Assembly: GCA_902774185.1 (NCBI GenBank)
Contig: CACYHE010000006.1
Span: 1-64,000, forward strand
DNA: 64,000 nt
Reading direction: 5' to 3'
DNA from: an uncultured Bacteroidales bacterium
GTDB lineage: Bacteria; Bacteroidota; Bacteroidia; Bacteroidales; Paludibacteraceae
The translations under genes were made by a program, and so were the position numbers. The notes beneath the pieces are model-generated. The model was not told where the DNA came from and ran no database searches. It saw only the letters and a list, made by a program, of their open reading frames with translations. Positions 42,973-62,247 of the stretch are shown here, piece by piece. The stretch's first letter is position 1. Each line of letters begins with the position of its first letter.

Positions 42973-43125
42973 TTATCTTCCGTCACCCGGATCGCTTACG
43001 GGATCTCCGGGAGTTCCGGTGTTACCCGGAATGATGCTAAACGTTTCATTGGAAACGGCGCAGATAGTGCCTGCTATTTGCACAGTCATAACCTCCGTAG
43101 CGGGGCAATTATAATTCTTTTTCAT
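42973..43125 (-). CDS. Tiny peptide of the MK-Y-P family (50 aa)
   Basis: MKKNYNCPATEVMTVQIAGT, then ICAVSNETFS and a Gly/Pro/Asp-rich end 'GNTGTPGDPVSDPGDGR'. It lies 42 nt downstream of the stop of the 2006-aa protein and upstream of a strong terminator, so it is the last gene of that transcript. It shares with the ORFs at 50638 and 62119 the start MK(K)xY--P, a [VT][IL]C-S motif near residue 20 and a Gly/Asp-rich tail. No signal peptide. Short ORFs of this look are, from memory, frequent in Bacteroidales but have no known function. Confidence 0.72.
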   Translation of the reverse strand: MKKNYNCPATEVMTVQIAGTICAVSNETFSIIPGNTGTPGDPVSDPGDGR

Positions 43126-43167
43126 ATTGCAATAATCTTTAAACATTCAACATTAAACATTCAATCA

Positions 43168-46100
43168 TTATTGTATAACTTGTCCTTGGATGTTATACTT
43201 CACGCCGTTGCGGATGATGATAACCTGGTTGTTCTCCAAACGCTTGATAGTCTCATCGTTGAACTTAGCGTTGTCGATGCCGGTCGGCATGTTCTGACGT
43301 TCAACGATACGTGCGTTCATTCCGCGGCGTACCGGCGAACCTGCAGGTACATTATCCAATTGGAAGTAAGCACGGAAGCCCTTGAGATAGTTGGTTACAC
43401 CCGCCCAAGACAGTTTGTTCTCGCCAAGGAGGAAGAGCATGTCTTCGTTACCAGCGGTGAACGGTTCCGGTTTGAGGATACCCTTAACGATGATTCCGTT
43501 GCCAAGGTTAGCATTGCTACCGATTGTTGCGCTGATGGTAACATTGGTGAAGGTCGGGTTAACGATATTCTCACCAGCCGGGAAGCTGATGAGGTACGGA
43601 ACACCGGCTTCGATGCTGGTAGCGTACTCATAAACGAGTTGGAGTTCATCGCTTCCACTTTCAACCGTAGCTTCGGTGAACTTAGCGAGTCTTGCGTAAC
43701 CTGCTAACGGGCTTGCTGCAAGAGCTGCTGCGTCCAAGTCGAACGGCAAGCAGAGGGTGTTGAAGTAACCATCACAGAAGATAGTACGTTTGATTGTGAT
43801 CGTCACAGGCTGAGCCTGTTCTACCAATTCACCCAGAACTTTCGTATTATCCTTTTTCTCATCCAGAGCCAAGGCGCTCTTATCCATTACGACAATATTG
43901 TCAATCGTATTGGCAGCATATTGGCTGAGGGAGTAGTAGCGGAATGCAAGGTAACCTGCGAATGCCGGAGCAGTAGTCAAGTCTGCTTCGAATGCAGTAC
44001 CTTCCAACTCAGCGAGCGAATGGAACTCACCCTCAATAGTCTCTACATAACCGAACTGCATGCTTGCATTGTTGAGCGTGTAGTCGAACGATACAGACAG
44101 TTTGTTCAGAGCCACGTCATAACCCGGCAGAACAACGATTTGCTCGTCAGCGCCACGGAAGAAGAGTTTTTCGCTCTCTACGTGAGCCGTAGCACTCTCC
44201 CAACATGCGGGCAGTGCATCATCAGCTATACCGGTGAAGTCTTCACTAAACGGCAGCTCAGCAGCAGAACGCATTGCGCAGACAGTAGTGAACTCAACAA
44301 CGTTCGAGAAGTCGCTACCACAAGCAGCTTGGATCTTAGCTTGGTATGTTTGACCTGCGGTCAGATTATTCAGTGTGTACGGATTAGCATTTACGTTCTC
44401 GCTCTCCCAATTCTCTCCGTCAACGGAGTACTGGAGTACCCAAGCGCTCTCAGAGCTGATCCAACTGAAGGTAGCGGAAGTCATCGTGCGAGCCGTTACA
44501 GTCAGAGCAGAAGGAGCGTTGCAAGCCGGAGTAAACTCTGCCGAAGCAGACCACTCGCTCTCGTCATTCTCACCACAGTAAGCACGAACTTGTACCTCGT
44601 AGGTAACATCCAGGCTCAGACCGGTGAGGGTATAGCCGTTTGTCGCAATCTCATTGATCGTTGTCCATGTGTCAGCATCTTTCACGCTGTAGCGTACGTT
44701 CCACTCGTTTTCATCCTTACCTGCAGTCCAAGTCAGCACAGCACCATCAGAGGTTTCAGCAGCTGCGAGAGCAGTCGGAACATAGCAAGTCGGCTTCAAG
44801 CTAACCTGAATGTCATCCACATAAACGGTTGTTGTGTAGCTGCTTCCTTTAGTACTACCGACACAACGGATTGCAATACGTGCGCCATCAGGAGCATCGT
44901 TTGGCATTTCGCGTTCTACCAAAGTATAATCCTCTACTTGTGCCAGCAACTCACCTACTTGTGTAAACGCATCGCCTACTACATAACCGATAGCCAACTG
45001 TCCGTAGTTAGAAGTGGTACCAGCATTGAAATACGAGAACGATACTTTCAAGTTCTTGATTTCCGTATTGAATACCGGCAGGATAGCATCCTCGGTATAA
45101 GCCAATCCGCCATTACGTCCCGGAGTTCTGAGATAGAGGTATTTGTCACCGCTTTGTGCATAGTACGAATACTCGGCTACAACCGGATAGCCATAGTTAG
45201 CATAAGGCTCTGTACGCTCCCAGCAGGAAGGCATGAATCCGTCATTCGTATCTTCGAAATCATAGTTCCACGGAGAAGCTTTACTTACAGCCTTCGGATC
45301 GCAGTCTGTCGGGAAGGAGAATGCCTCGTCACCTGTCCAGTCACCTGTGCCATCACCTGCGCAGTCAGCTTGAACCTTTACAAAATATACAGTATTTTCT
45401 GCAAGACCTGCCAAGTCATAAGACGGAGTCGTTGCAACAGGAATAACTGCGCTCCACTCGCCGCCTGCAGCCTTGTATTGGAGGTTCCAAGCCGTCTCTT
45501 CGCCGGCTGTCCAAGAAACGGTAGCCGTATGAGCGGTAACATTGCTTTCTGCGAGCGTTGCAGCACTAACTGCCGGACATGCCGGAGCGATGTACTCTGT
45601 TACAGAGAAGTTGTCGATGTAGAGATAGTACTGGTCATCCGATGTATGCATAATTGCCACATACTTAACTCCTACCGGCAGATTTTCTGAATATCTCAAT
45701 GCACTCGTATTGGTTGCTGTTTGTTCTGCACCCCATGTAAAGGCAGAAACCTCTTTAGTCGTAGTAGAATAACCTACCTTAAAGGTTTCAGTACCGCTAT
45801 ACATGTAGTAATCAAATTCTACAGTTACAGGTTTACTTTCCGTATCAATCTCAGGTGAAATCAGATATTGAGGAGGAACTTCACTTGCCCAAGTATTATT
45901 ATAATAGAATCTAAATGTTCCATTATACAATCCTGTACTTGCGTAACAATTCTCTTTCGTCCAGCAACCGAGGTCAGCGCCGCCAAAGTTATCGCTAAAC
46001 GGCAAAGCAACAGCGCCACATTCGGTTTCGAACGGATCAGATGCCTCACTATACGGGCTCTCGTCACCAACGCCGCAAATAGCTTTCACGCGTACATAAT

Positions 46101-49100
46101 ACGTAGTGTGGTTCGGAGTCAGACCGGTGAGTTGGTACGGATTAGCGTTTACATCAATTGCGTCACCCCATGTAGAGCCATCATTCGAGAGCTGGATCTT
46201 CCATGCGGTTGCACCGTTATTTTCTGTCCAAGCAACATCAGCCGTAGTAGCGGTTTCATTAGAAACAGTTACACCGGTCGGAGCAAGACAGTTCGGCGTC
46301 GGATAAACGCGTACGTTGTCAATATAGCCATATGCGGAATATTCACCGCCTGCGAAACGGATAGCTAAGCATTTTGCATCCGCAGGAAGAGCTGCCAAAT
46401 CTTTCGTATATTTCGTGTAGTTGTTTGCATAATCCAGAGTCTCAACAGGAACGAACGTCGTGCCATCAGCAGCGATGTAACCTACCGTGAATTTCGCATA
46501 CGTGTACCAACCACTTTCTGCCGCTTTATAGTAGAACTCAAGCGTCAAATTGTTCAAAGGCTGATCCATCTCTGGCAAGAGAACACTCTGCTCCGAAGAT
46601 TCATCAACACCGCCTTGGAAATAGAGGCACTGGCTACCTGCATACGCATAATAACTACCATTGTAAACATACGGAATGCCGGAACCATATTTTTCTCTAT
46701 ATTGCCAGCAGTCAGGCAGGTTGCCTATGTTGATAGCAGAATTCTCCATTGTCTCGCTATAGTCGCTTGCATCAACAGGTTGGCAAGGAGTCGGGAACGG
46801 AGCAGAAGAACCACTCCAATCGCTCACATCTTCACCGCCGCAAAGAGCTTTCACCTGTACAATATAATCAGTATTAGCGCTTAATCCGGTCAAGGTGAAC
46901 GGATTCGTGTTTGCATCAATTTCAGCGCTCCATGTAGCACCGTTGTTCGATGAATACTGGAGCTTCCATGCACTCTCACCGCTGTTAGCAGTCCAAGAGA
47001 TAGATGCTTGGTTATATGCAGTAGCAGCACCGTTTACATTAGACGGAGCCACACATGAAGGAATTGCAGAAATCGAGATATTATCTACAAACAAATATCC
47101 TGCACTTGAACCTCCTGAATATCGAATTGCAACACGCGAACCTACTGGTGCATTGGTCAATGCCACACTTGCAGTAGCGTATGCACTAACTCGTGGCAAA
47201 GATTCTTGCGCGGTAAATATAGAATTAATTACGTATCCTATTGACAACTGGCCATAATTGTCACCAGAATAGTCATATGTCTCCTCCCAATAACTATCAT
47301 AATACGCATTATTATAGTCCAAAGTTACATACAATGTATTAGTAGCCTCTGTAAACGGCGGCAAAATAGTGATTTGCTCAGAAGTTCCTGTTACTCCACC
47401 ATAGAAGTATAAACATTTTGTACTACCCGTCTTCTGGTAGGAAGCAGTACTACTAATCTGCGGATAGGAGTTGTTGTTGGTTATTTTCTGCCAGCAATCA
47501 GGGATTTTGCCGCTACCGGCAGTAGCGTCCTCAAAGTCTTCACTCCAGCCAATACCATTTACAGCTTCGCAAGGAGTCGGGAATGCAGCAGAAGCGATCC
47601 AATCGCTCTGCTCACCACCGCAATCTGCTTGTACGCGTACTTTGTAGGTAGTGTTTGCAGTGAGACCTTCCAATGTAAAAGGATTCTCAGAAATACCGCT
47701 TACAGTAGTAGAGGTAGCAAAATTATCAGTAGAATATTGCAGATTCCATGTAGTAGCCGAACCGTTCTCAGTCCACGAAACGGTAGCAGAAGTAGCCGAA
47801 GCTGCTACAGCGTTCACGTCCGAAGGATCGGTACAAGACGAAGGAAGAGAAACTTTAATATTATCAAGATAGAAGTATGAAGAATAAGAACCGCCTGTAA
47901 ACTTGATAGCAATTAACGAGTTTGCAGGAGCTCCTGTCATTGCAAATTTATTTACTTCTACTCCACTCGTATTTTTTGTGAGCGGATTACCTAATTGATG
48001 GAATGTAGAAGCATCTTCCGGGTCAGTTATGTAACCGATTATTCCCTGTCCATACGAAGTCGAAGAGTTCTTATACCAGAACGAGAGAAGCAAATTGCCG
48101 GTTGCTTCCTCAAACGGAGGAAGAATAGCAATCTGTTCGGAAGTACCAGTTACACCTCCATAGAAACGCATGGATTTGGAACCACTTTCACCATTAGAGT
48201 TATATATAGTAGGATAAGAAGTCGTTCCGCTAACAAACGCTACTTTCGACCAGCAATCGGGGTAAGAGCCGCTTGCTTTGTCGTTGAAATTCTCTTCGTA
48301 CGGAAGAGCGGTTGTGGCATAAGCGTTGCAAGGAGTCTTGAAAGCTTTAGAAATCTCACCGCTTTGATCGGTTGCACCGCAATAAGCACGAACATAGAAC
48401 TTATAGTTTTCTTCTGGGCTCAAACCGGTAACCGTAGCAGAAGTAGAAGTCGCAGTCTCAGCACCAGACCAATCCAAAGTAGAAGTAGCCGGCAAACAAA
48501 CCCACTGCCAAGAAGCTTCCGAACCGCCTGCAGTCCATGCAAAAGTTGCCGAATTTGCCGATACTGCTTCTTTTGTCAGATCTTTAGGTTTCGGACATGT
48601 TGGCGCAACCCCGGGAGTATAGGTAAAAGTCGCTTTCGGCAATACGTTACAAACAGCAGCACCTCCATAGTTGACTTTGTTACTATAACCAGCGCCTGAT
48701 TGGCTTATTCCATAGAAATTAGCATTCACCCACGCGCTCTTCTTAACAGTAACTTCTATGTCAAGCAACAAGTTATTTTCTCCGCTGTATTCAAAAGGAG
48801 TGTCGAAGGTTATTTCCATTTCACTACCAGAAAGTACTAAACTTCCGGTATAAACCACTGTACCTCCGTCCGTATTAAATCCACTCAACGTAGAAGCACT
48901 GATCTCAGACAAGCGGACCTCAAAAGTAGAGGAAAATGTCTTGGATGCCGTAGAGGAATAGAACTTAACCTTGGAGATTGTTCCATTTGCCAATTCCGAC
49001 AACAATGAAGCTGGATAAACAACCTGAGAACGCATACCTTTCGTATCCGCATAGTTACCACAGATTGGGACACCGGCATTTGTCGCTGTTCCATCCGCAA

Positions 49101-49188
49101 CGGTCAGCTCATCAGCCCACATCGTACCTGATCCCAGCCATAGCAAGGCGGTGAGGGTTAAAATTGATAAGTAAAATTTTTTAATCAT
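43168..49188 (-). CDS. Giant secreted adhesin with seven FN3 and six cleaved-adhesin domains
   Basis: 2006 residues; signal peptide 1-25 (ends GTMWA). Residues ~26-190: domain shared with the 39608 protein. Then FN3 modules (each starting 'C-x-P' and containing 'TVSWT') alternate with MAM-like cleaved-adhesin modules (each with 'xF(E/N)...PxCW', 'LPxF', 'YxDNIxV'): seven FN3 and six adhesin modules counted, the first two adhesin modules sharing 'YGGVTGTSEQI'. Residues ~1790-1970 are the 'CLPF' domain ('FNTLCLPFDLDAAAL', 'EAGVPYLISF', 'DMLFLLGENKLSWAGVTNYLKGFRAYF'). Tail: NNQVIIIRNGVKYNIQ. Six-fold modularity suggests growth by internal duplication. Followed by a 50-aa peptide gene and preceded by a 43-aa ORF. 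Confidence 0.85.
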   Translation of the reverse strand: MIKKFYLSILTLTALLWLGSGTMWADELTVADGTATNAGVPICGNYADTKGMRSQVVYPASLLSELANGTISKVKFYSSTASKTFSSTFEVRLSEISASTLSGFNTDGGTVVYTGSLVLSGSEMEITFDTPFEYSGENNLLLDIEVTVKKSAWVNANFYGISQSGAGYSNKVNYGGAAVCNVLPKATFTYTPGVAPTCPKPKDLTKEAVSANSATFAWTAGGSEASWQWVCLPATSTLDWSGAETATSTSATVTGLSPEENYKFYVRAYCGATDQSGEISKAFKTPCNAYATTALPYEENFNDKASGSYPDCWSKVAFVSGTTSYPTIYNSNGESGSKSMRFYGGVTGTSEQIAILPPFEEATGNLLLSFWYKNSSTSYGQGIIGYITDPEDASTFHQLGNPLTKNTSGVEVNKFAMTGAPANSLIAIKFTGGSYSSYFYLDNIKVSLPSSCTDPSDVNAVAASATSATVSWTENGSATTWNLQYSTDNFATSTTVSGISENPFTLEGLTANTTYKVRVQADCGGEQSDWIASAAFPTPCEAVNGIGWSEDFEDATAGSGKIPDCWQKITNNNSYPQISSTASYQKTGSTKCLYFYGGVTGTSEQITILPPFTEATNTLYVTLDYNNAYYDSYWEETYDYSGDNYGQLSIGYVINSIFTAQESLPRVSAYATASVALTNAPVGSRVAIRYSGGSSAGYLFVDNISISAIPSCVAPSNVNGAATAYNQASISWTANSGESAWKLQYSSNNGATWSAEIDANTNPFTLTGLSANTDYIVQVKALCGGEDVSDWSGSSAPFPTPCQPVDASDYSETMENSAINIGNLPDCWQYREKYGSGIPYVYNGSYYAYAGSQCLYFQGGVDESSEQSVLLPEMDQPLNNLTLEFYYKAAESGWYTYAKFTVGYIAADGTTFVPVETLDYANNYTKYTKDLAALPADAKCLAIRFAGGEYSAYGYIDNVRVYPTPNCLAPTGVTVSNETATTADVAWTENNGATAWKIQLSNDGSTWGDAIDVNANPYQLTGLTPNHTTYYVRVKAICGVGDESPYSEASDPFETECGAVALPFSDNFGGADLGCWTKENCYASTGLYNGTFRFYYNNTWASEVPPQYLISPEIDTESKPVTVEFDYYMYSGTETFKVGYSTTTKEVSAFTWGAEQTATNTSALRYSENLPVGVKYVAIMHTSDDQYYLYIDNFSVTEYIAPACPAVSAATLAESNVTAHTATVSWTAGEETAWNLQYKAAGGEWSAVIPVATTPSYDLAGLAENTVYFVKVQADCAGDGTGDWTGDEAFSFPTDCDPKAVSKASPWNYDFEDTNDGFMPSCWERTEPYANYGYPVVAEYSYYAQSGDKYLYLRTPGRNGGLAYTEDAILPVFNTEIKNLKVSFSYFNAGTTSNYGQLAIGYVVGDAFTQVGELLAQVEDYTLVEREMPNDAPDGARIAIRCVGSTKGSSYTTTVYVDDIQVSLKPTCYVPTALAAAETSDGAVLTWTAGKDENEWNVRYSVKDADTWTTINEIATNGYTLTGLSLDVTYEVQVRAYCGENDESEWSASAEFTPACNAPSALTVTARTMTSATFSWISSESAWVLQYSVDGENWESENVNANPYTLNNLTAGQTYQAKIQAACGSDFSNVVEFTTVCAMRSAAELPFSEDFTGIADDALPACWESATAHVESEKLFFRGADEQIVVLPGYDVALNKLSVSFDYTLNNASMQFGYVETIEGEFHSLAELEGTAFEADLTTAPAFAGYLAFRYYSLSQYAANTIDNIVVMDKSALALDEKKDNTKVLGELVEQAQPVTITIKRTIFCDGYFNTLCLPFDLDAAALAASPLAGYARLAKFTEATVESGSDELQLVYEYATSIEAGVPYLISFPAGENIVNPTFTNVTISATIGSNANLGNGIIVKGILKPEPFTAGNEDMLFLLGENKLSWAGVTNYLKGFRAYFQLDNVPAGSPVRRGMNARIVERQNMPTGIDNAKFNDETIKRLENNQVIIIRNGVKYNIQGQVIQ

Positions 49189-49224
49189 AATACTTAAAAT
49201 TTAATTTAACAATATATTTTTGAT

Positions 49225-49356
49225 TTATTTTGATGCTTCTTGCTGTTTTTTCTTTCGTTCCACTTCGTAGCGGGCTTCCGTTGCAGCAAAGCCTACTGCA
49301 TTTATCGCCTCCCCAACTTGAGGTGCCATTTTGGCTATGTCAGTTTTCTTAGGCAT
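49225..49356 (-). CDS. Small basic protein (43 aa) leading the giant-adhesin transcript
   Basis: MPKKTDIAKMAPQVGEAINA followed by a mixed-charge helix rich in Ala, Glu and Lys ('ATEARYEVERKKKQQ'). It is the first ORF after a perfect promoter (start ~58 nt upstream) and ends 36 nt before the 2006-aa gene. No signal peptide and no recognised family. It could be a small helical protein or a leader ORF controlling the adhesin. Confidence 0.55.
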   Translation of the reverse strand: MPKKTDIAKMAPQVGEAINAVGFAATEARYEVERKKKQQEASK

Positions 49357-49420
49357 TCCCTATGGTGTATTTGTTACACATATGCACGTGTACGCGTGTA
49401 AAAAATAACAATTCAGCCCG

Positions 49421-49452
49421 CAAAGATACAAAAAAAACGGCAATTGGACAAA
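49421..49452 (-). promoter_or_regulatory. Promoter of the 43-aa ORF / giant adhesin / 50-aa peptide operon
   Basis: Minus strand: TTTG (49452-49449), 20 nt, TATCTTTG (49428-49421). A CACGTGTACGCGTG-type palindromic stretch lies in the leader (49386-49399). Confidence 0.83.
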
Positions 49453-49619
49453 TATCCCATAAAAAACGTGACTAAAAAACTTGATTTTGCAAAGTCAATT
49501 TTACAATAAAATATTGAAAAATTAACGAGTCTCTCTCATTCGCATCTGTTCTTATCTCTCTTCGTTCGAACGATTATTTCGCATTACGGACATCGAAATT
49601 CCATATTTCTTCCTAATTA

Positions 49620-50828: not shown

Positions 50829-53240
50829 TTATTTAACCATTTGACCAATGACGTTGTAGGTCTTGCCGTCACGGAGAATGAGGATTTCGCCGTTACGGAG
50901 GATCTTATTTGTCATTGGTAATTTGTCATTGGTGATTTGATCAACGCCGGTTGCTGCGTCTTCCTTTTTGACGATACGGGCACGTTTGGCTGCTTTTTGG
51001 GCATCGCCCTTCACTTCGAAGTACGCACGGAAGGCTTTGATGTTTGCCGTGGTCGAAGGATAGAAGAGTTCGTTACCGGCACCGAGGAAGAGCGTGTTCT
51101 TGTCACCTCCGGTTAATTCGGTCGGGGCATAAACCGGTTTGAAATCGATGCAAGAAGTAGTTACGTTAACAGGACTGGTCGCTGTAATGGTCACTCCTTC
51201 GAACGAGGGATCTGCTACGTTAGATGCAGGTTGGAGCAAGTAGGGTTTACCGGATTCGAGCTCATATACGCGATTGAAGACAAGGGTCAACAATTCGCCA
51301 TCGAGCGAAGAGCTTGACAACTCCTCCAAGTCGTAGCCCGCACCAAAGAACTCCTGTAGTTGGTCATCGTCCAACGCGAACGGCAGACAGAAAGTATTGT
51401 ACTGCGAGGAGACGAGGGAACGAACAAAGGAGATATTTGACAACTCACCTGAATAAGTTGCGATATCTGAATTGTTTGAGTTCTCGGACAAGGTGAACGC
51501 AGAAACGATTTGTCCTTCTCCACTTGCGCCAAGACAAACGCTTCTATTGGATGCGGAAGAAACGAAATAGTCACCCGGTTTCTCACCGCCCATATTTGCC
51601 CAACCGGCAGTAAACACGCCGGATAAGCGGAACACCTTATACGGAGTAGTATTGGTTAACGGTTTCCCGCTTTCAATAGTAATTGCATTAGAATTCAGAT
51701 AAATATCTGTCTTCACACCGGAAATATTCGGTGCTCCGGATAGTTTTATCGTACCGGCATTGTTGTCAATGGCTGCGTTATAGTCATTCGAATCATCTGC
51801 CAGATTGAGCACTGCTCCTTCGCCTATTACCAACGTACCGCCTTCTTTCACTGAGATAAGTGCTTTGTCCAAGAAATCACCAGGATAACCTCCCGTGATT
51901 ACGCCATCACCGGCATCATCGTAAATAGTAAGCGTTTTACCGCTTGGCACAATAATATGCGTGCCATACAGGAATATCTGCTTTCCGTGCAGATTGAGCG
52001 TCAAGTTGCCTGTGAGAGTCACATTATTGTACTCCACTACATTCTTTGCAAGAAAGACCTGACCGGAAGTAGGCATTGCATCTTGAGTGGAATATTTATC
52101 GAATGAAATATCTTTATAGACGAGCATATCAGGCTCGGAGGAAGTGTTGAAATTGATTGTAGCCCATTCGCTGGCTTCTTCTCCTACTATAGTTTTTACG
52201 CGCACGAAATATTTGGTCTCGCTTTCCAGCCCGCTCATTGAATAGGAGCGAACATCTTTGTTGATAGCGATATCATCACTATAAGAGCCTCCGTTCACTT
52301 TCCATTGGAGTGTATAAGAATCTGCGTCTTCAACGGCATCCCAAGAGATAGTTGCAGAACTGAGGGTTATAGACGAAGCCGCGGGTTCGGGTACACCAAT
52401 CGGATCCGGTTCGGGTTCCGGATCAGGATCTTCACCTTCTTCCCACAGGTCTGCCCAATCGGTAACAACTTTGAGTTCGTCAATGAGGCAAGCCGCCTGT
52501 GAAGTATTAGATGAATAAAGAACAACGCTACCAAATGACGCGGCATCATTTTTTGCGCTAGCTTGTGTCGGTTTTGGAACGCATGTAGCACTTTCTGGTT
52601 TAGCCCCCTTAGTTGGATTGATGTACATCTTAATGACATCGTTTTTATCGCCGTCAACCCATGTATATTCTACGACAATCAAATATGTGCCATAAGCATA
52701 TTCATTTGCTGTATAGTCAATATATGTCGCAGTACTAGTTTCATCTAATTTGGCAATTCCAAACTTAAATCCACTACCGGATTGCATTACATATGGACGA
52801 GCATAGTGTTTTGTACTTGCTCCATTAAGCCCTGATGTACCAACACCCAATGCCCACAAATAATCTTTCCCACTTGATTTCATAGAGGATATTTTTACAA
52901 TACCTGCCATATAAACAGAACCGGAATTGACAGATTTAGTAAGAGGAGATGCTACACGTTTCCCATAATCCGCCTTAAATTCTGCTGTTTTTGTACCATC
53001 CGTTGCTGATTTATATCCGGAGTAAGTCAAATCATTAGAGCTATTCACATAAACATAACCACTTGCACCCATAATATTTGTCCATCCTGAAGCTGCAATT
53101 TCACCAGAATATGGCATTGCATCCGTATTTGTTGCCAGAGTTTCTGTTGTTTGTGCAAAATGCTCGATCAAAAGCACTTCCGCATTGACGGATGCGGAAA
53201 GGAGAATAAAAGAAAATAATGTGAGTAAAATCTTTCTCAT
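50829..53240 (-). CDS. Secreted lectin-like / FN3 protein with CLPF domain
   Basis: 803 residues; signal peptide 1-20 (MRKILLTLFSFILLSASVNA). Residues ~21-270: a concanavalin-like domain shared with the divergent 917-aa protein ('VYMAGIVKISSM...', 'FKFGIAKLDETSTATYIDYT', 'YLIVVEYTWVDGDKNDVIKMYINPTKG'). An acidic Pro/Glu/Asp linker, one FN3 (~285-365), a beta-helix-like region ('NLTLNLHGKQIFLYGTHIIV'), then the CLPF domain ('YNTFCLPFALDDDQLQ', 'ESGKPYLLQP', 'NTLFLGAGNELFYP', 'IKAFRAYFEV'). The linker before the tail, VDQITNDKLPMTNK (50907-50941), is repeat-encoded. Tail: NKILRNGEILILRDGKTYNV. Followed by a 45-aa peptide gene. Confidence 0.83.
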   Translation of the reverse strand: MRKILLTLFSFILLSASVNAEVLLIEHFAQTTETLATNTDAMPYSGEIAASGWTNIMGASGYVYVNSSNDLTYSGYKSATDGTKTAEFKADYGKRVASPLTKSVNSGSVYMAGIVKISSMKSSGKDYLWALGVGTSGLNGASTKHYARPYVMQSGSGFKFGIAKLDETSTATYIDYTANEYAYGTYLIVVEYTWVDGDKNDVIKMYINPTKGAKPESATCVPKPTQASAKNDAASFGSVVLYSSNTSQAACLIDELKVVTDWADLWEEGEDPDPEPEPDPIGVPEPAASSITLSSATISWDAVEDADSYTLQWKVNGGSYSDDIAINKDVRSYSMSGLESETKYFVRVKTIVGEEASEWATINFNTSSEPDMLVYKDISFDKYSTQDAMPTSGQVFLAKNVVEYNNVTLTGNLTLNLHGKQIFLYGTHIIVPSGKTLTIYDDAGDGVITGGYPGDFLDKALISVKEGGTLVIGEGAVLNLADDSNDYNAAIDNNAGTIKLSGAPNISGVKTDIYLNSNAITIESGKPLTNTTPYKVFRLSGVFTAGWANMGGEKPGDYFVSSASNRSVCLGASGEGQIVSAFTLSENSNNSDIATYSGELSNISFVRSLVSSQYNTFCLPFALDDDQLQEFFGAGYDLEELSSSSLDGELLTLVFNRVYELESGKPYLLQPASNVADPSFEGVTITATSPVNVTTSCIDFKPVYAPTELTGGDKNTLFLGAGNELFYPSTTANIKAFRAYFEVKGDAQKAAKRARIVKKEDAATGVDQITNDKLPMTNKILRNGEILILRDGKTYNVIGQMVK

Positions 53241-54058: not shown

Positions 54059-56812
54059 ATGAAAAAGATTTTTACGTTATTATGTGCGGCGATGATGGTC
54101 GCAGCAGTGGAGGCGAAGGTCATTCTGACCGAGAGTTTTGAGCAAAGTGCAGGTACGCTGCATGCAGGTCTCAATACCGAAATGGGTTCGAACACCAGCG
54201 ATTGGTGGACGTTCAGCGGAGGTACCGGTTCTACGCCTAAATTTATCGAAGTGGTAAACGGTTCGCTTTCCTATCCGGGTTATGCCACCGCAGGCAAGGG
54301 AAACAAAGCGCATTTATGGTCCACAGACGCAGACGATTTGCGGCAATTTTCAAAAGAATACACGAGCGGAAAAGTATATCTGGCTGCAATCATCAATATA
54401 GATACCCTCAGACAAGGTACGAGTCCGGACTATTTCTTAAGTTTTGGCGACGCGTCTGCCAGCAACCATTGTGCACGACTCTATGCTAAATCGGTGAAGG
54501 AAAGCGGGCAATATATTGGATTCCGCTTAGGTGTTGCTAAGAAAGATGAAAATAGCACATATATCCGTTACACGAGCGATGTACTCAGCGCCGAGACGAA
54601 CTACTTGGTGGTTATCGAGTACGAGTTTGTAGATGGCGACAATAATGATATCGTTCGTCTGTATGTCAACCCGACCAAGGCAACCACTCAACCGACTTTC
54701 GAGTGCGTACAAGATACGGTGAATAGTAACAGTACTTCTTGCGGTGCTAACACCAAGAAAGATGCTGCCAAACTGGCGTCGGTTAACTTGCGCCAAGGCA
54801 CCAACACGCCAAGAAACGTTTTTGTAGACGAGATCACAGTTGCCACCACCTGGGATGAGTTGTTTGCAGACGAAGGCGGAGACACACCGGGCGGAGGTGA
54901 TCAGGACGAAGACGATGCTTTGGTGATCGACTCCGAGGACAACCTGATTGCGAACAGCAGTTTTGAGGAGTACAGCTGTAATGCTGTCTTCGGTTGCTCA
55001 TTCGATGATTGGAGCTTACCGCTGAACACGGCGAGTGCCAACTCGTCCGACAAACTGTTAGGCAGTACCTCGATTATGATGAACCCGACGATGGTTGCAA
55101 CAATCGACCAAGGCGTGCAGTTGACTGATGCCAGTTATGCGGCAGGCACTAAGTTCACCTTGACGCTCAACTATAAGATCATCACTATGCCGGAAGGCGG
55201 TGCGCTGAAAATGGATTGCTACTGGGAAGCCGCAGCAGGTGGTGACTCCGAGGCGATTGAGGCACACGATGCCGAAGTGCTACGGGGCGAACTGGCAAGC
55301 GGTAACGCATGGAAGCATAAGGTAGTAACGACCACCAAGCCGGCCAAGTCCGCATACCTGCGTGTACGCGTGACCATCCCGAAGGGCGCTAAAGTGCTGT
55401 TCGACGCTTGGTGTCTGCTCAAAGAGACTGCCGCTCCGGACGAGCCGTTCATTGAGGTATCGCCGGTTCAGCTATCGTCGGTAGAGACGACTCTGGGTAA
55501 CACGGTGAACTTCCAGACCGTTCATATCCACCAAGGCAACCTGACGAGCAATACGACGTTCTACGTAGGCGGCAATGATAAAGGCCATTTCCAACTCTCG
55601 GCAAACGAGTTAGCAGCCGACCAGAGCGATTTAGACCTTATTATAACATACGCACCTACGAGCGCAGGCACGCACACGGCATCGCTCATCTTCGATAATG
55701 CCAACCACACGACGATTCTGCCGGATATGATCTCGCTTAAGGGAACCTGTACCGACCCGAGTGCAAAACCCGTGCTTACCGTCACGCCGAGTACCTTACC
55801 TGATTTTGAGGTGCTGGAAGGCAAGCAGCAGAAGATGACCGTAACGCTGAGCAGCGTAAACTGCACGGATTACGTCTATGCACGCGTAGATCATATCAGT
55901 CCGGAGGAGCACGGTACGTTCACTATCGACGGTACGATGTTCAGCAAGAACAGCGAGGCAACGGTGACGATCACTTTCTCGCCGCTACAGGCCGGTACGT
56001 ACCAATCGAAGATCACCTTCTACTCGCAAGACGCAGAGAGCGTCGTGCTGACCGTAAACGGAAAGGGTATCGCGAAGACGCCTGAGACGATCGATTGGCA
56101 GACCGATTTTGTATGGGACGAGAGTAATCCGTTGACCTATATGGATGAACCGTTCGACAATATCAAGCATAACGAGACCTTGCTCTTGAGCGGTTGGCAG
56201 AACGTAGCAGCTGCCGAAGCTCGTCCTTGGTGGGGCTTTGACGAGTCGAAGACCACTCCGGCACGCGGTACCGGCAAGTACGCCAAGGCGACCGCTTACC
56301 AGTTCGGCAAGGATTCGACGGCGCTCTGGGACATGTGGCTCGTGACACCGGCACTCGACTACAAGAACGCCGAGAAAAAAGTGTTTGCATTCAATGTGAT
56401 GGCAGAGTACCTGGCGGACGAAGGTAACAAACCGCAGTTGGGCATCTATTATATCGACGCGACAGGCGCTGAGCTGTTCGTGCAAGACCTCACGTCCAGT
56501 TTCGAACTGCCGTCCACCAGTGACGAGAACCTCGTTTGGTACTCCTACATCCTGGATCTCACGCCGTACGCTCAGACGATGGCAGATGTGTTCCATATGG
56601 CATTCCGCTACACCGGCCCGAACGGCAATGAAGGGGTTGTGACCTATTATATTGACAATGTCAGCTGGGGTAAGGAAGATCCTGTAGAGGGTATTGAAAC
56701 GATTAGCGATGAGGGATTATCGATTAGCGGACGCAAGCTTCTCCGTAACGGCCAACTCCTCATCCTCCGTGACGGCAAGACCTATAACGTGCTGGGTACA
56801 CGGGTTGAGTAA
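54059..56812 (+). CDS. Secreted multi-domain surface protein (lectin-like, ASH-like, cleaved adhesin)
   Basis: 917 residues from the ATG at 54059 (MKKIFTLLCAAMMVAAVEA, signal peptide); the longer frame from 54023 lies inside the structured leader. Residues ~20-270: lectin-like domain shared with the divergent 803-aa protein ('GKVYLAAIINIDTL', 'GFRLGVAKKDENSTYIRYTSD', 'YLVVIEYEFVDGDNNDIVRLYVNPTKA'). An acidic Gly linker, a CBM-like jelly roll (~290-465, 'NLIANSSFEEYSC'), two ASH-type domains (~470-675, 'TFYVGGNDKGHFQLS...', 'LIITYAPTSAGTHTASLIF'), and a cleaved-adhesin domain (~685-880). Tail: GRKLLRNGQLLILRDGKTYN. Role inferred as surface binding. Confidence 0.83.
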   Translation: MKKIFTLLCAAMMVAAVEAKVILTESFEQSAGTLHAGLNTEMGSNTSDWWTFSGGTGSTPKFIEVVNGSLSYPGYATAGKGNKAHLWSTDADDLRQFSKEYTSGKVYLAAIINIDTLRQGTSPDYFLSFGDASASNHCARLYAKSVKESGQYIGFRLGVAKKDENSTYIRYTSDVLSAETNYLVVIEYEFVDGDNNDIVRLYVNPTKATTQPTFECVQDTVNSNSTSCGANTKKDAAKLASVNLRQGTNTPRNVFVDEITVATTWDELFADEGGDTPGGGDQDEDDALVIDSEDNLIANSSFEEYSCNAVFGCSFDDWSLPLNTASANSSDKLLGSTSIMMNPTMVATIDQGVQLTDASYAAGTKFTLTLNYKIITMPEGGALKMDCYWEAAAGGDSEAIEAHDAEVLRGELASGNAWKHKVVTTTKPAKSAYLRVRVTIPKGAKVLFDAWCLLKETAAPDEPFIEVSPVQLSSVETTLGNTVNFQTVHIHQGNLTSNTTFYVGGNDKGHFQLSANELAADQSDLDLIITYAPTSAGTHTASLIFDNANHTTILPDMISLKGTCTDPSAKPVLTVTPSTLPDFEVLEGKQQKMTVTLSSVNCTDYVYARVDHISPEEHGTFTIDGTMFSKNSEATVTITFSPLQAGTYQSKITFYSQDAESVVLTVNGKGIAKTPETIDWQTDFVWDESNPLTYMDEPFDNIKHNETLLLSGWQNVAAAEARPWWGFDESKTTPARGTGKYAKATAYQFGKDSTALWDMWLVTPALDYKNAEKKVFAFNVMAEYLADEGNKPQLGIYYIDATGAELFVQDLTSSFELPSTSDENLVWYSYILDLTPYAQTMADVFHMAFRYTGPNGNEGVVTYYIDNVSWGKEDPVEGIETISDEGLSISGRKLLRNGQLLILRDGKTYNVLGTRVE

Positions 56813-56830
56813 ATAAATATAGATAAATAC
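56809..56830 (+). repeat. 22-bp direct repeat, right copy
   Basis: Overlaps the stop codon of the 917-aa gene (TAA at 56810-56812); identical to 53676-53697. Confidence 0.8.
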
Positions 56831-56921
56831 AACAAAGGATGTTGCAAATAGCGGATTAAGAGGTCAAAATGCAAAATAAAATGTACAAAACGTAATTTTT
56901 TAAGAAATTATATACATTTTG

Positions 56922-56953
56922 TTTGCATATATCAGAAAAAAGCACTACTTTTG
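56922..56953 (+). promoter_or_regulatory. Promoter upstream of structured leader B
   Basis: TTTG (56922-56925), 20 nt, TACTTTTG (56946-56953). The transcript would begin near 56960, ~600 nt before the ATG at 57565. Confidence 0.83.
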
Positions 56954-56994
56954 CAGCGATTTTGATATTTACTTACTCACAGCATGTGAGGATT

Positions 56995-57041
56995 CGATTT
57001 CTTGGATCGGGTCTCGGCCCATCCAAGAATCGTTTTTTTTT
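56995..57041 (+). terminator. Strong terminator early in leader B (attenuator-like)
   Basis: CGATTTCTTGGATCGGG, loop, CCC-ATCCAAGAATCG, then nine T. It begins only ~35 nt after the predicted start, so it would stop most transcripts from promoter 56922 unless it is prevented from forming. Leader A lacks it. Alternatively it ends the 917-aa transcript. Confidence 0.82.
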
Positions 57042-57058
57042 AAAATCTGATAGTAAAA

Positions 57059-57424
57059 AAACATAGATAAACACTGAATAATAATTTTATCACTACGTGA
57101 TTACGAATCTTTGTTCTGATAACTTATTTTTGAATACATTCAACATAACTTATCCGATCAAACATTCATCTCTTAAAGATACAAATTATTATTCTGCGAT
57201 AAACAAAGATAAATTTTTTCAAAGCATAGTGTAACTTTTTATACACTGATCCGCTATGAATTTTATCTATGTTTATTGCTTTTGAATGATTTTGACACGA
57301 AAGTGCGTGGATTAGAGCGATTGAGCAGATAGAAAAGCTTGTTTTCATAGATGATCAAGCGGTCTGAGACACAAGGAGCAAAGCTCTAAAATCATTTAAA
57401 AGGTTTTATCTTAATTTATATACG
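57059..57424 (+). ncRNA. Structured 5' leader B (candidate regulatory RNA)
   Basis: Same layout as leader A: P1 57059-57071 with 57262-57274 (13 pairs), P2 57076-57087 with 57183-57194 (12 pairs), P3 57285-57293 with 57388-57396. P2 differs in sequence from leader A on both sides yet still pairs. In P1 a U-G of A becomes C-G here, and the small hairpin has a GAAA loop instead of GAAG. Another 140 nt follow before the ATG, with hairpins TAGGCA-T-TGCCTA (57463-57475) and ATATATACT-TAT-AGTATATAT (57500-57520). Confidence 0.6.
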
Positions 57425-57564
57425 AAAAGAAGGCGAAACGGGACAGGAACGGATCGATTACGTAGGCATTGCCTATGAATCACGTATCCTACCCACCTTA
57501 TATATACTTATAGTATATATCCCGTGATTTTGAAAATTGATAATTATTAAGTAGGTATTAGTAT

Positions 57565-60500
57565 ATGAAAAAATCTTTACTTTATTCATTTTTCATCACC
57601 GCTATGCTTTGCATAGTTGGTATCAATAATGCGTGGGCTTTGGACTACAACTGCATAATTACTAACATTAGTATTGAGCAATCGGATGCTATCACGATTA
57701 ATCGCTTCAAATTGACGATTAACCAGAGTGCAGTAGCTACCGCTTCAGGTAATACCGCATATACAAACAGCATTGAACTCTATCTCGACTCTGATGATCG
57801 TACAATTGAGGGATCATATTCTTCAGCTAATGCTGCTACCAACAAAATTAACAAGGATTTAACTTCTTTTAATAATGGTAGTCGGGAAATTCGTACCAAT
57901 GCGACTTCTACTTTCGTCATAAACAAAGTTAGCGATGGTGTATATAAGATTAAACCATGTACTTTATGTCTTCAGAACACATCTACTCATTCTGGAACCT
58001 ACAACTATCGCTATGCATATGCCAACAAAACTAATGCAATATCCGGTACCACCACTGATTATCAATTTGAATTTACTCCGCAGTATGCTGTTGCGCCTAC
58101 AAGTTTAAGTACTAGTTCTGTAGGTGCGACGACTGCAACAGTAAGCTGGACAAGTAGTGAGAGTGCATGGCAGTATGTTTGTTTGCCATCATCGACTACT
58201 TTAACAGAAGAATTATGGACAAGTAATGCGGTTTCTACAAATACTAAATCGGTAAATCTTACAGGGCTGACACCTGCTACCAAATACAAATTCTATGTCA
58301 TCTCTGATCGTGGTGCAAATGGTACGAGTGTTATCTCCTCGAAAGAATTCACGACCGAATGTGCTACTGTTTCTTCTTTCCCTTGGAATGAAGGTTTTGA
58401 AAGTGCAACTTCTGCTGAATTACCCTTATGCTGGCAGAAAATCACAGCAGGTACAGCTAATGTAATGGCAAGTTCTTCGTACCAAAAATCGGGAAGTAAT
58501 TCTGTTTGTTTAGTAGGAGGCGGTAGTTCTACAGATGTTATTGCTGTACTCCCTGAATTTACAACAAACATTAGCAATCTTGCTATTTCCTTCTGGTACA
58601 AAACTCCTGTTGATGATGAATTTTACGATTATGGAGACACTAAAGTCGGATATGTTACCAACACAAGCAGTGCATCGAGTTTCGTTGCAACGAGCGGCAA
58701 TTTAACACAGACTGAAAGTTTCGACGAAGTAGAGAACATTTCGTTTGACGGAGCTCCTTCAGGTGCACGTATGGCTATACGCTTTACCGGAGGTGTTTCC
58801 AATGGTCGTGTATACATCGATGACATCACTGTTACCGAGAAACCGACTTGCAACAAGCCGACAGGAGTTGCAGTAACAGCAGACAGCGAGACGGCTGAAG
58901 GCGCAACAATTACTTGGAACGCGAATAGCATGAGCGCGTGGGTAATGCAGGTTTCGGAAGGCGACGCTGCAAGTTGGGGCGACGATATCAATGTGGCTAC
59001 CAACTCCAAAGTGCTGACCGGCTTGAAGGCACATACCTTATATTATGTTCGCGTAAAAGCAACTTGCGGCGTGTATGGAGATAGTGAGTGGAGCGATAAT
59101 GCTTCCTTCACCACCCTCTGCGGTACGGTTAGCGTAAGCGCTTCTTCCTCTTGGAACAACGATTTCGAGGGTCTGGGCGATCATGTTATCCCTGAATGTT
59201 GGGACAACTCCGCTTCCACAACGACCTCTTCATGGGGCAGCGGCTATATCTGGGGTACGTATGAGCGTAGCAGCAATAAGTCGCTGGCTATGGACAACGC
59301 CGTTTGCGATAACGGTACCTCTCTTATCAACACGCCGGATATCGCTATTCCGGATGACGGTAGAGAGTATGAGTTGACCTTCGACTACTCGAACATGGCA
59401 ATCGCCGGTAATAATCTATATGTAAAAATCTCCGCAAACGGCGGTGCATTCGTAGAAAAGGGTGTATATTACCCCTCCGGCAATGTGTCTTCCTATCCGG
59501 GCGAGTTTGTACCCGCTACCATCAGCCTTGCCGACTACAGCGGTCAAACCATCAAGATTCAGTTCTTCGCGAACCCCACAAGCGGTACTGCTTCCACCGG
59601 AGGTGCGATGTTCATCGACAACGTCAGCGTACACAAAGCGACAACTTGCTTCCAACCGACCGCATTAGCAGCATCTAACTTGACCGCTAACAGCGCTCAC
59701 ATGACTTGGACTGCCGGTGGTAGCGAGACCGCTTGGCGTCTCCAGTACCGCACAGATGGCGGTTCATGGAGCGCAGAGCAAGCGGTAAGCACAACTCCGG
59801 CATTTGACATTGAGAGCCTCAGCGCAAACACGGAGTACTTTGTACGCATAAAAGCATACTGCGGTGTAGAAGACCAGAGCGAATGGAGCGAAGTTGCTTC
59901 CTTTACTACCCTCTGCGCAGCAGAAAGCATGCCGTTCAGCGAGTCGTTCAGCAGTGCATCGGCTCTGCCCTCTTGCTGGGAAGCAACTCCTGCTTCGGGT
60001 ACCTACAAATGGGGCGCATATGAGAACAGCGGTGCGTATAGTGTACAACTTCGTACCGGTTCGAGCGGTAGCGCTGAACTGCGTATGCCGCCTGTTGCGT
60101 TGAGCGAGGACGCTATCTTGCGCTTCGAGTGGAAGAACGTCAACGGTGCGTCCGTAAACATCTATGTTTCCACGGACGGCGGTTCAAGCAGAACCATGAT
60201 TCCGACCGACCTGTCCGGTATTCATGCCGATTGGGCAACGAAAGTCTTTGACCTCTCCGCTTACACCGGCGAGACAGCATTGATCTACTTCGTAGCCAAC
60301 TTCTCGACCGCTAACCAATACGCATACTTGGACGACGTGGAAGTAGTAGCCCGTCCGTGCGAGATGATTCTCAATATCGCCGCAGCTCCGATCACCGGTG
60401 GCGGTACCCTCTCTTGGAGCGGTAACGTGAAGAAAATCCGTTATAAGAAAGGCTCGGACGAATGGAGTTATGCAACTCCTGCTAACAACGCCGGTCCGCA

Positions 60501-62085
60501 CACGTTGAGCGGTTTGACACCTGCCACCTCGTATCAGTTCTGCTTACTGCCGACTTGTTTGGGTGAGGAAGAGTCGAATTGGACCACACCGGTATTCTTC
60601 ACCACCAAAGCAACTGAACTCATCCCCTATAGCAATGATTTCGAAGCAGAGACGCCGGGTGAAGTACCGTTTAACTGGAGCCGTATCTCCGCTTCGGAAT
60701 ACCCGCAGGTAAGCCACGATTCCTATGCCTACAGAGATGGTGGCAGCTTCGGTGACCAAGGCAACAGCGTGAAGTTCTACGGTGTTAATGACCAGATCTT
60801 AGTATTCCCCGAGTTTGATGCAAATCTTGGCGACTTGATTGTTTCCTTCCACTACCGTAACCGCGACTGTACCATGCAGTTGGGTTATATAGAAGAAGAC
60901 GGTACAACCTTCGTAGCTCTTGAGACATTGTCTAACCAAACCGGTTACGGTGAGTACCCGTTCGAGAAAGACCTCTACGGCATCAGCAGCGATGCAGCGA
61001 ACCTCGCTATCCGTTACTCCAATGCCGGTGGTACGGCTCAAGCTTGGGTGGATAATGTGGAAGTAAAAGAGGCTACTTGTGGTCAACCGACCGACTTGGC
61101 GTTTGATAATGTTACGGCAAACTCCGTACACATTAGTTGGTCGGCTTCGGCTCGTGGTACTGAGTCTAACTATCAGTATATCCGTCAAGTATGGAGCGAA
61201 GACGATCCTAACTGGGCAAGCGCTACCTTGATCGGAAGCGATGTGACAGAACTGAACATTACCGGTTTGAACGCCAACACCAGATATGAGTTCTATCTGC
61301 GCTCCTACTGCGGTGTAAGCGACCAGAGCACACCGGTGAAAGTAGAGTTCACTACGCTGATGAAGGACGAAGTATTCGAAGACCTGCCTACTGCAACGGA
61401 CAACGAGAGCCGTCTGGCGGCCTTGGCAGGACAAACGATTAACATGACTATCAAGCGTCCGTTGTTGCTCAACGGTGATTACTGCACACTCTGCTTGCCA
61501 TTCGACCTGAGTGCTTCAGAAATAGCAAATCCCGAGTGCCCGCTGCACGGCTTCGTCATTAAAGAGTTTGAGATGTCACAAGCAGCTTCGGGTGCAGTGA
61601 ACATCTACCTGAATCAGGTAACCTCTATTGAGGCGGGTAAGGCATACTTCGTACGCTACGCCGGAGAGCCTTCTGAAGATCGACTGACACCGATGACTTT
61701 CCGTAGCGTAGAGATCGTACTTAGCACACCGCTGGACGAAGAGTTGACCGATGATTGCACACCGCATGGCGTCTTCAACCCGTACGCTTTGGTTGCTAAC
61801 GATGTGACTACACTCTTCCTCTCATCGAACAACACGCTTTATTACCCAAGTGCGAACGGTACGATGAACGGTTTCCGTGCCTACATCAAGGTAGGCGACG
61901 CACTCAGTGCTCCTATCCGTCGCGGCGCTCCGATCCGTATCGTGGAGAAAGAGAATACGACTACAAGCTTGGATCAACTCACCAATGACAAATCACCAAT
62001 GACAAATAAAGTCCTCCGTGACGGACAGATCATCATCATTCGTGACGGCAAAGAATACAATATAATGGGTATTATGGTGAAATGA
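57565..62085 (+). CDS. Giant secreted adhesin with FN3, cleaved-adhesin and CLPF domains
   Basis: 1506 residues; signal peptide 1-26 (ends NAWA). Residues ~27-170: the unnamed beta domain ('IELYLDSDDRTIEGSYSS', 'YKIKPCTLCLQN') that is repeated in the 62273 protein. Then five FN3 modules (e.g. 'APTSLSTSSVGATTATVSWT', 'CFQPTALAASNLTANSAHMTW') alternate with four cleaved-adhesin modules ('FPWNEGFESATSAELPLCW', 'MPFSESFSSASALPSCW'). The CLPF domain is at ~1295-1480 ('YCTLCLPFDLSASEI', 'EAGKAYFVRY', 'TLFLSSNNTLYYP', 'MNGFRAYIKV'). The linker LDQLTNDKSPMTNK is repeat-encoded. Tail: NKVLRDGQIIIIRDGKEYNI. The first ~800 bp are visibly richer in A+T than the rest. A paralogue of the 2006-aa protein; followed by a 42-aa peptide gene. 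Confidence 0.85.
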   Translation: MKKSLLYSFFITAMLCIVGINNAWALDYNCIITNISIEQSDAITINRFKLTINQSAVATASGNTAYTNSIELYLDSDDRTIEGSYSSANAATNKINKDLTSFNNGSREIRTNATSTFVINKVSDGVYKIKPCTLCLQNTSTHSGTYNYRYAYANKTNAISGTTTDYQFEFTPQYAVAPTSLSTSSVGATTATVSWTSSESAWQYVCLPSSTTLTEELWTSNAVSTNTKSVNLTGLTPATKYKFYVISDRGANGTSVISSKEFTTECATVSSFPWNEGFESATSAELPLCWQKITAGTANVMASSSYQKSGSNSVCLVGGGSSTDVIAVLPEFTTNISNLAISFWYKTPVDDEFYDYGDTKVGYVTNTSSASSFVATSGNLTQTESFDEVENISFDGAPSGARMAIRFTGGVSNGRVYIDDITVTEKPTCNKPTGVAVTADSETAEGATITWNANSMSAWVMQVSEGDAASWGDDINVATNSKVLTGLKAHTLYYVRVKATCGVYGDSEWSDNASFTTLCGTVSVSASSSWNNDFEGLGDHVIPECWDNSASTTTSSWGSGYIWGTYERSSNKSLAMDNAVCDNGTSLINTPDIAIPDDGREYELTFDYSNMAIAGNNLYVKISANGGAFVEKGVYYPSGNVSSYPGEFVPATISLADYSGQTIKIQFFANPTSGTASTGGAMFIDNVSVHKATTCFQPTALAASNLTANSAHMTWTAGGSETAWRLQYRTDGGSWSAEQAVSTTPAFDIESLSANTEYFVRIKAYCGVEDQSEWSEVASFTTLCAAESMPFSESFSSASALPSCWEATPASGTYKWGAYENSGAYSVQLRTGSSGSAELRMPPVALSEDAILRFEWKNVNGASVNIYVSTDGGSSRTMIPTDLSGIHADWATKVFDLSAYTGETALIYFVANFSTANQYAYLDDVEVVARPCEMILNIAAAPITGGGTLSWSGNVKKIRYKKGSDEWSYATPANNAGPHTLSGLTPATSYQFCLLPTCLGEEESNWTTPVFFTTKATELIPYSNDFEAETPGEVPFNWSRISASEYPQVSHDSYAYRDGGSFGDQGNSVKFYGVNDQILVFPEFDANLGDLIVSFHYRNRDCTMQLGYIEEDGTTFVALETLSNQTGYGEYPFEKDLYGISSDAANLAIRYSNAGGTAQAWVDNVEVKEATCGQPTDLAFDNVTANSVHISWSASARGTESNYQYIRQVWSEDDPNWASATLIGSDVTELNITGLNANTRYEFYLRSYCGVSDQSTPVKVEFTTLMKDEVFEDLPTATDNESRLAALAGQTINMTIKRPLLLNGDYCTLCLPFDLSASEIANPECPLHGFVIKEFEMSQAASGAVNIYLNQVTSIEAGKAYFVRYAGEPSEDRLTPMTFRSVEIVLSTPLDEELTDDCTPHGVFNPYALVANDVTTLFLSSNNTLYYPSANGTMNGFRAYIKVGDALSAPIRRGAPIRIVEKENTTTSLDQLTNDKSPMTNKVLRDGQIIIIRDGKEYNIMGIMVK

Positions 62086-62118
62086 TGCATATGATGGAAT
62101 GATTTAATGGTTTTGATT

Positions 62119-62247
62119 ATGAAAAAGAACTATATACAGCCTCAAACGATGGCACAGTTTTTGCAAGGAATGCATGTGATTTGCGGTAGTAATCCGGATC
62201 TTATTTCAGGAGGCCCCGGAGACCCGAACGATAAGGAAGTATTCTGA
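62119..62247 (+). CDS. Tiny peptide of the MK-Y-P family (42 aa)
   Basis: MKKNYIQPQTMAQFLQGMHV, then ICGSNPDLIS and the end 'GGPGDPNDKEVF'. It starts 33 nt after the stop of the 1506-aa adhesin and ends 25 nt before the next secreted-protein gene, so it is probably in the same transcript. Closest in the window to the 45-aa ORF at 50638 ([VL][IL]CGS, Gly-rich end, final Phe). No signal peptide by eye. Function unknown. Confidence 0.72.
   Translation: MKKNYIQPQTMAQFLQGMHVICGSNPDLISGGPGDPNDKEVF

Follow-up and report, generated by a model that had tools for sequence, protein, structure and literature searches.

What are the very short open reading frames (ORFs) that stand directly behind three giant surface-protein genes in an uncultured Bacteroidales bacterium of the Paludibacteraceae, and do they form a functional unit with those genes? 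The stretch analyzed, hereafter the window, comprises the first 64,000 nucleotides (nt) of contig CACYHE010000006.1 (C6:1-64000, 47% GC) from assembly GCA_902774185.1, a genome of 2.19 Mb in 35 contigs that is 87% complete. A first-pass annotation had placed three ORFs of 50, 45 and 42 amino acids (aa) 33–53 nt behind the stop codons of large secreted proteins carrying a domain termed CLPF, and translation confirmed their coordinates (Table 1), sizes and gaps, each peptide lying on the same strand as its upstream gene. All three begin MK(K)xYxxP as claimed, while a second shared motif, 'C-S', was slightly overstated since two peptides have LCGS or ICGS and the third has ICAVS (C--S). Exactly the three CLPF proteins among nine complete tailed secreted proteins of the window were said to have such a partner, and this was borne out: a short ORF within 400 nt downstream was found for 3/3 CLPF proteins vs 0/6 others, the ninth tailed protein having only 234 nt of window left behind its gene. 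The data presented below suggest that these peptides are probably dispersed precursors of a maturation system resembling those of ribosomally synthesized and post-translationally modified peptides (RiPPs) and dependent on a RiPP recognition element (RRE), with the likely partners (RRE, peptidase and kinase) encoded outside the window.

The association with CLPF genes was found to extend well beyond the window. A CLPF-domain profile identified 14 loci in the source genome, 12 of them followed by a peptide after a gap of 19–252 nt, the two without one being C20:40716 and C18:53745. In congeners, 20/25 CLPF genes passed a strict peptide pattern (two loci cut by contig ends and one unparsed locus excluded), and by eye four of the five failures as well as the unparsed locus carry a peptide-like ORF, one without Pro. 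Among named genomes 38/66 CLPF genes passed, seven cut loci being left out, vs 3/101 other ORF-called genes of the same loci, none of these three matches being family-like by eye. This strict count supersedes a looser one (39/66; controls 10/86), from which it differs at L138 (starts MAKK), L166 (a chance ORF) and L150 (gene choice). Counting ORF by ORF overlooks peptides whose frame opens before the stop of the gene, as at L048 where a peptide is present, and the source, congener and named sets overlap by three identical peptide pairs. Homologues are thus found elsewhere and linked to CLPF genes. The pairing was variable between types of C-terminal tail, with 23/31 genes of the own-type tail, 13/31 of the Prevotella-type GxYIxNGKK tail and 2/4 of others passing in the named set. 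Relatives identified with the CLPF profile belong to Paludibacteraceae, Bacteroidales, Bacteroidaceae and Prevotella records, mostly rumen and gut metagenome-assembled genomes. No Pfam or NCBIfam model matched the CLPF domain, and among PDB sequences nothing beyond a weak match to part of an adhesin chain was found (8f9l, E 0.0025). At L044 and L174, a single CLPF gene is followed by a tandem of two distinct YxxP peptides, which lie 34 and 258 nt past its stop.

Comparison of related peptides indicated constraint at the amino acid level. The proportion of nonsynonymous changes (pN) was below that of synonymous changes (pS) in 28/28 pairs, partly non-independent, from eight groups of related peptides, with a pooled pN/pS of 0.44. 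Absence of homologues elsewhere, no association with CLPF genes and lack of coding constraint had been named beforehand as findings contrary to the proposal, and none of these was observed. The order of CLPF gene, peptide and next tailed gene around position 62119 is kept in four other genomes, the third gene being 65–78% identical and in one case cut. Within the source genome, contigs C22 and C3 share three aligned DNA blocks of 370, 95 and 163 nt (91, 96 and 95% identical) that begin at the CLP domain, span tail and peptide and stop a few bases past the peptide stop. The flanks are unlike, there being no other match within the 2.5-kb stretches compared (approximately 1.2 kb before and 0.6 kb after). 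The two copies (L013, G000:C3:8846-9241; L012, G000:C22:16664-17047) reflect a recent duplication, and in the C3 copy a 34-nt insertion shifts the tail out of frame with the peptide frame still open. As the duplicated cassette spans CLP domain, tail and peptide between unlike flanks, these appear to have moved as one unit. Judged from coding constraint and kept gene order, the short ORFs are protein-coding peptides and not stray reading frames. A role in cis at the 3' end of these very long messengers, affecting translation or the stability of the mRNA, or simple annotation noise would account for the position right behind the stop codon and for the 4-nt overlap with the gene stop at L052, L055, L097, L107 and L111. 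This already disfavored explanation is very improbable given the constraint in all 28 pairs, the scarcity of such ORFs behind control genes and the occurrence of the same family upstream of lipoproteins and beside RRE genes, described below.

The neighbors of the peptides were not confined to CLPF proteins. Searches with peptide profiles indicated a total of approximately 19 peptides in the source genome (matches on C9 and C11 were dismissed as chance), five extra ones, on C29, C20, C8, C10 and C5, following tailed proteins whose C-terminal domains are of other types. On C20 one peptide stands behind a gene that is HipA-like by eye, and another YxxP peptide (L315:3995-4153, G000:C20:46006) lies shortly before a lipoprotein-like gene, a layout also seen in the distant loci L071 and L073. 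In a broader search a peptide was visible in 27/29 loci; assigned by eye, 14 of these 27 sit 11–45 nt behind a tailed or secreted protein, six directly precede a lipoprotein-like gene (at −14 to 37 nt, using the listed ORF starts), one is 220 nt behind a tailed protein and six fit neither class. The shared partner is a surface or secreted protein and no single domain. Peptides behind other tailed proteins and before lipoproteins rule out CLPF as sole determinant and, together with the two of 14 source-genome CLPF loci without a peptide and the low rate for the Prevotella-type tail, leave the strict one-to-one pairing proposed in the first-pass annotation unsupported. The weaker claim of a functional unit is supported by the CLPF association, the constraint and the duplicated cassette. 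The observation itself is real and wider than first seen. At L103 (G557:C10:153447, ORF 1501-2610) a YxxP peptide is in frame with a 370-aa lipoprotein-like ORF, which could be a genuine fusion or result from loss of a stop codon, and since the latter would account for it this case was not used as evidence.

These arrangements bear on whether the peptide might act unmodified, as a structural or secretion partner of the neighboring surface protein, for instance as a beta strand completing the C-terminal domain or as a dedicated chaperone similar to the SprF-type partners that are encoded behind type B cargo of the type IX secretion system (T9SS). Tight adjacency to surface-protein genes, joint duplication of CLP domain, tail and peptide, an alternating hydrophobic pattern in the peptides and presence of the T9SS translocon gene SprA in 10/10 genomes are all consistent with such a role. 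It is nevertheless unlikely: the same peptide family is found with different types of domain as well as in front of lipoproteins, inspection by eye reveals no signal peptide on the peptides, and the genes at L120 and L177 that are related to the window gene at 50829 (56% identity across the last 260 residues) have no peptide behind them. An unmodified partner would also leave unexplained the peptides within an RRE cluster and the co-occurrence with a peptidase and a kinase, to which we return below.

To describe the peptides as a family, 65 non-redundant CLPF-linked members were compared, Y and P being part of their selection. Their length is 36–69 aa with a median of 47, and the median gap to the upstream gene is 34 nt over all 70 peptides. 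Numbering from the Tyr (position 0), the N-terminal half is conserved, with K/R at −3 and −2, P at +3, T/V/I at +5, E at +6, V/I at +7, a hydrophobic residue at +10 in 89% and at +16 in 97%, C at +17 in 25 of 65 and S at +19 or +20. A hydrophobic-small-Ser motif was present in 46/65 peptides vs a mean of 5.3 and a maximum of 13 in shuffled sequences. YxxP was invariant across the 41 rows of peptide profile A5, partly through selection. The C-terminal half is variable, nearly Cys-free and rich in Gly (18%) and Asp/Glu (18%), Phe being the commonest last residue (16/65). The two halves look like a leader and a core, so that the short precursor with conserved leader and variable core expected of a RiPP was found across the 65 peptides, along with the YxxP leader motif expected of lasso peptides. 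Among 41 members scanned no Pfam or NCBIfam family was significant (best E 0.035, one member), and no convincing relative was found in PDB by sequence (best E 0.072). Peptides of the Prevotella type (L118, L128, L139, L145, L149) share a second block, approximately YGGGSxxxARVKxxxxYNVWDDDW, which looks like a core common to that lineage.

A leader of this kind would be expected to coincide with a set of processing enzymes, and the distribution of peptides and candidate enzymes was compared over 393 genomes of the order. Profile A5 matched 7/393 genomes (one match, in G500, lies inside a long frame and looks like chance) and, because it was narrow outside the genus, a broader profile A6 was built, which at E ≤ 0.01 identified 18/393 peptide-positive genomes in 11 families. 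An S26-type peptidase (profile A7, E ≤ 1e-6) was present in 58/393 genomes, comprising 17/18 peptide-positive and 41/375 other genomes (Fisher 1.3e-14); at a stricter cut-off of E ≤ 1e-20 the counts were 16/18 vs 13/375. As some peptide-positive genomes had contributed profile rows (7/18 to A6, the G179 row having been found beside an RRE locus, and some to A7), the count was repeated with seed genomes of either profile removed, giving 8/8 (7 families) vs 39/373 (p 3e-8). PqqD, the family of the discrete RRE, was detected in 17/18 peptide-positive genomes, and PF05402 matched all 10 peptide-bearing genomes first tried; PqqD presence alone is too weak as proof with 242/393 genomes having one, and it was for this reason that more specific profiles were made. 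An HprK-like kinase was also present in 17/18 peptide-positive genomes, several of which gave rows to the kinase profile, and in 9/9 tested genomes of the own genus that bear peptides, the 18 including three of these. The sole exception, G604 (89% complete), lacks S26 peptidase, PqqD and HprK-like kinase alike. Because peptide-bearing genomes almost always carry this RRE/S26/kinase kit, which seems equipped for recognition, cleavage and phosphorylation of the peptides, these are probably precursors rather than stray frames.

Physical linkage of peptides and enzymes was observed in several genomes. In 10/11 loci the RRE gene is immediately preceded by that of the S26-type peptidase, the exception being the second RRE of G007. 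In G659 one strand encodes kinase, S26, RRE, nucleotidyltransferase, peptide and a lipoprotein-like gene, and in G337 one strand encodes peptide, kinase, S26, RRE, nucleotidyltransferase and ABC (ATP-binding cassette) transporter, another peptide of G337 following a secreted protein after 20 nt. The order is secreted protein, RRE and peptide (by pattern, not profile) in G344, and CLPF gene, peptide (MKKFIAP; FxxP, with Phe replacing Tyr) and RRE in G007. In G649 a peptide-like ORF, truncated where the contig ends, is followed on the other strand by ABC transporter, nucleotidyltransferase, RRE, S26 and kinase. Association of an RRE with the precursor, a further hallmark of RiPPs, was therefore seen as adjacency in G007, G344, G659 and G337. 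The S26 proteins keep G.SM.P, HR and GD[GN][NQ] in 17/17, with weak PDB matches to SEC11 signal peptidase subunits (E 9e-4), and the nucleotidyltransferases belong to PF14907 (NTP_transf_5). The co-occurrence of RRE, S26 peptidase and kinase favors the 'modified peptide' among the options that had been offered for the pairing (peptide cargo, modified peptide, or partner in export or anchoring), an interpretation which as a whole is partly supported. Conservation of the Ser-His peptidase motifs, and the ABC transporter gene in loci of G337, G371, G649 and G179, would also suit a small pheromone-type signaling peptide that, apart from cleavage by the S26 peptidase, is exported without chemical change; the surface protein would then be its receptor or merely share its promoter. 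Such a signal leaves kinase and nucleotidyltransferase unexplained, and many divergent copies per genome, as in the source genome, would be odd for one signal; it is considered improbable, slightly more so than the unmodified partner.

Several observations weigh against a dispersed RRE-dependent precursor system. Only 2/51 RRE loci scanned (L204, L237) have a convincing peptide directly adjoining, many of the 51 RREs belonging to other kinds. In the source genome RRE (L198:9779-10045, minus strand) and S26 (L198:10065-10538, minus strand) lie on C10 among tailed secreted-protein genes and the kinase on C7 (6541-7404), unlinked to the pair, and no YxxP ORF was found within 19.9 kb around the S26-RRE pair. 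With PqqD as common as it is, it is the S26 peptidase that carries the co-occurrence case, together with the kinase to the extent that few negatives allow; the latter was found in 1/6 genomes without known peptides (G002; three of the six searched for peptides by profile and three for CLPF only). Thirteen genomes have a strong S26 match and no A6 match, the peptide being absent or the profile insensitive, and the genomes are not independent since they are related. Finally, the peptides never end in Ser (0/65), unlike the substrates of known lasso kinases, which are modified at a C-terminal Ser (PMC8498205).

The closest parallel among known systems is provided by lasso peptides with split B1/B2 proteins of the paeninodin/pseudomycoidin type, as described in PMC8498205. 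In common with these are a discrete PqqD-like RRE, YxxP near the leader start (listed as a characterized RRE recognition motif of lasso peptides in PMC12710340), an HPr-kinase homologue, a nucleotidyltransferase and, in several loci, an ABC transporter, kinase and nucleotidyltransferase acting as tailoring enzymes in lasso biosynthesis (PMC8498205). In contrast to this type, an S26B-type peptidase occupies the position that the transglutaminase-like B2 leader peptidase has in lasso clusters, and most precursors lie far away from the enzymes, next to surface-protein genes, with a last residue that is never Ser in the 65 peptides. Pfam searches of cluster genes and their flanks in G424, G659, G337 and G371 revealed neither an asparagine-synthetase-like lasso cyclase nor a B2 leader peptidase, no genome-wide search having been made for either. 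Likeness to the NCBIfam 'HPr-rel-A system' extends to the combination of a PqqD family chaperone with an HprK-related kinase; the source RRE scores 26.1 of 35 bits with TIGR04353 and the kinase 37.3 (G424) and 17.6 (G016) of 200 bits with TIGR04352, and because both fall below the cut-offs these proteins are not members by this test. With the archaeal and SEC11 (S26B) branch of signal peptidase I the S26 proteins share Ser-His motifs and weak profile matches, unlike which they have no N-terminal membrane helix by eye and their gene adjoins the RRE. In the RRE-Finder study approximately half of almost 8,000 discrete lasso-type RREs were without leader peptidase and cyclase and were regarded as possible DNA-binding proteins or RREs of uncharacterized RiPP classes (PMC7470986); the RREs described here resemble these orphans, for which the portion of that paper considered names no precursor or peptidase. 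HPr, S24 and YxxP are absent from the main text of a survey of Bacteroidales RiPPs (PMC10352776). No publication naming this system was found by title or abstract start, most subscription journals lying outside the search. Taken with these comparisons, the gene content favors a maturation system whose tailoring enzymes are also those of lasso clusters, with no cyclase seen nearby, and whose precursors are spread beside surface-protein genes.

A proposed operation of a dispersed RRE-dependent system can be outlined from gene content and conserved motifs, from which we infer RRE binding, S26 cutting and kinase modification of the peptides. Gene order, gap and the duplicated cassette suggest that surface-protein gene and peptide would be co-expressed. 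The N-terminal half (MKKxYxxPx[TV]ExVxxL...LCxxS) may then serve as leader, its YxxP strand being bound by the discrete PqqD/RRE protein encoded elsewhere, as indicated by the motif and by co-occurrence. Cleavage near the conserved hydrophobic-C/L/A-x-S stretch would fall to the S26B-type Ser-His peptidase, whose gene immediately precedes that of the RRE in most loci; its conserved catalytic residues and its adjacency suggest this role. Cluster content points to the HprK-like kinase, and in some genomes the NTP_transf_5 nucleotidyltransferase, as acting on the peptide and to the ABC exporter as moving it. In the weakest step, the Gly/Asp-rich remainder might work at the cell surface with the neighboring tailed protein or lipoprotein; that the product is a ligand or cargo of this neighbor is a guess.

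Features of the window are collected in Table 1. No T9SS tail or sorting-domain model of Pfam or NCBIfam matched the five window proteins scanned. The tail [NG]GQLIIIRDGKxYNxxGxxV on tailed proteins of the window (e.g. 57565-62085) is possibly a shortened sorting signal, and SprA is present in the genome. Several ORFs (13688-14698, 17713-18921 and upstream of 50775) have MVNDxMVN-like starts, which suggests a dispersed short intergenic DNA repeat that is also found close before some peptides.

Table 1. Peptides, CLPF domains and tailed secreted proteins discussed in the text, by position in the window
Feature	Position	Strand	Evidence and context
YxxP peptide, 50 aa	42973..43125	−	42 nt past stop of CLPF gene at 43168; translation and profile matches
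YxxP peptide, 45 aa	50638..50775	−	53 nt past stop of CLPF gene at 50829; translation; codon constraint vs L126, L138
YxxP peptide, 42 aa	62119..62247	+	33 nt past stop of CLPF gene 57565-62085; translation; relatives in L042, L116, L119, L129, gene order kept there
Secreted protein, 2006 aa: seven fn3 stretches, CLPF domain, C-terminal tail	43168..49188	−	Pfam
CLPF domain	43300..43866	−	Profile A3; no Pfam or NCBIfam model match
Secreted protein, 803 aa: fn3, CLPF domain, tail	50829..53240	−	Pfam
CLPF domain	50967..51485	−	Profile A3
Secreted protein, 1506 aa: four fn3 stretches, CLPF domain, tail	57565..62085	+	Pfam
CLPF domain	61384..61947	+	Profile A3
Following tailed secreted protein, 501 aa	62261..63766	+	Order after peptide kept in four other genomes

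A more far-reaching and distinctly tentative proposal is that of peptide-equipped surface proteins in Bacteroidota, in which each adhesin-like protein would come with its own precursor and a single enzyme set per genome (RRE, S26-type peptidase and HprK-like kinase, in some cases with nucleotidyltransferase and exporter) would mature all of these in trans, the mature peptide being mounted on or working with its cognate C-terminal domain. If true, the products of this RiPP class would, instead of being free small molecules, form part of proteins at the cell surface. The RRE-dependent system as such is testable in one genome, since the RRE, peptidase, kinase and approximately 19 candidate precursors are located there. 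It could supply both substrate and peptidase for a group of discrete PqqD-like proteins to which no pathway has been assigned, within a major order of gut bacteria, and would tie peptide maturation to the diversity of surface proteins.

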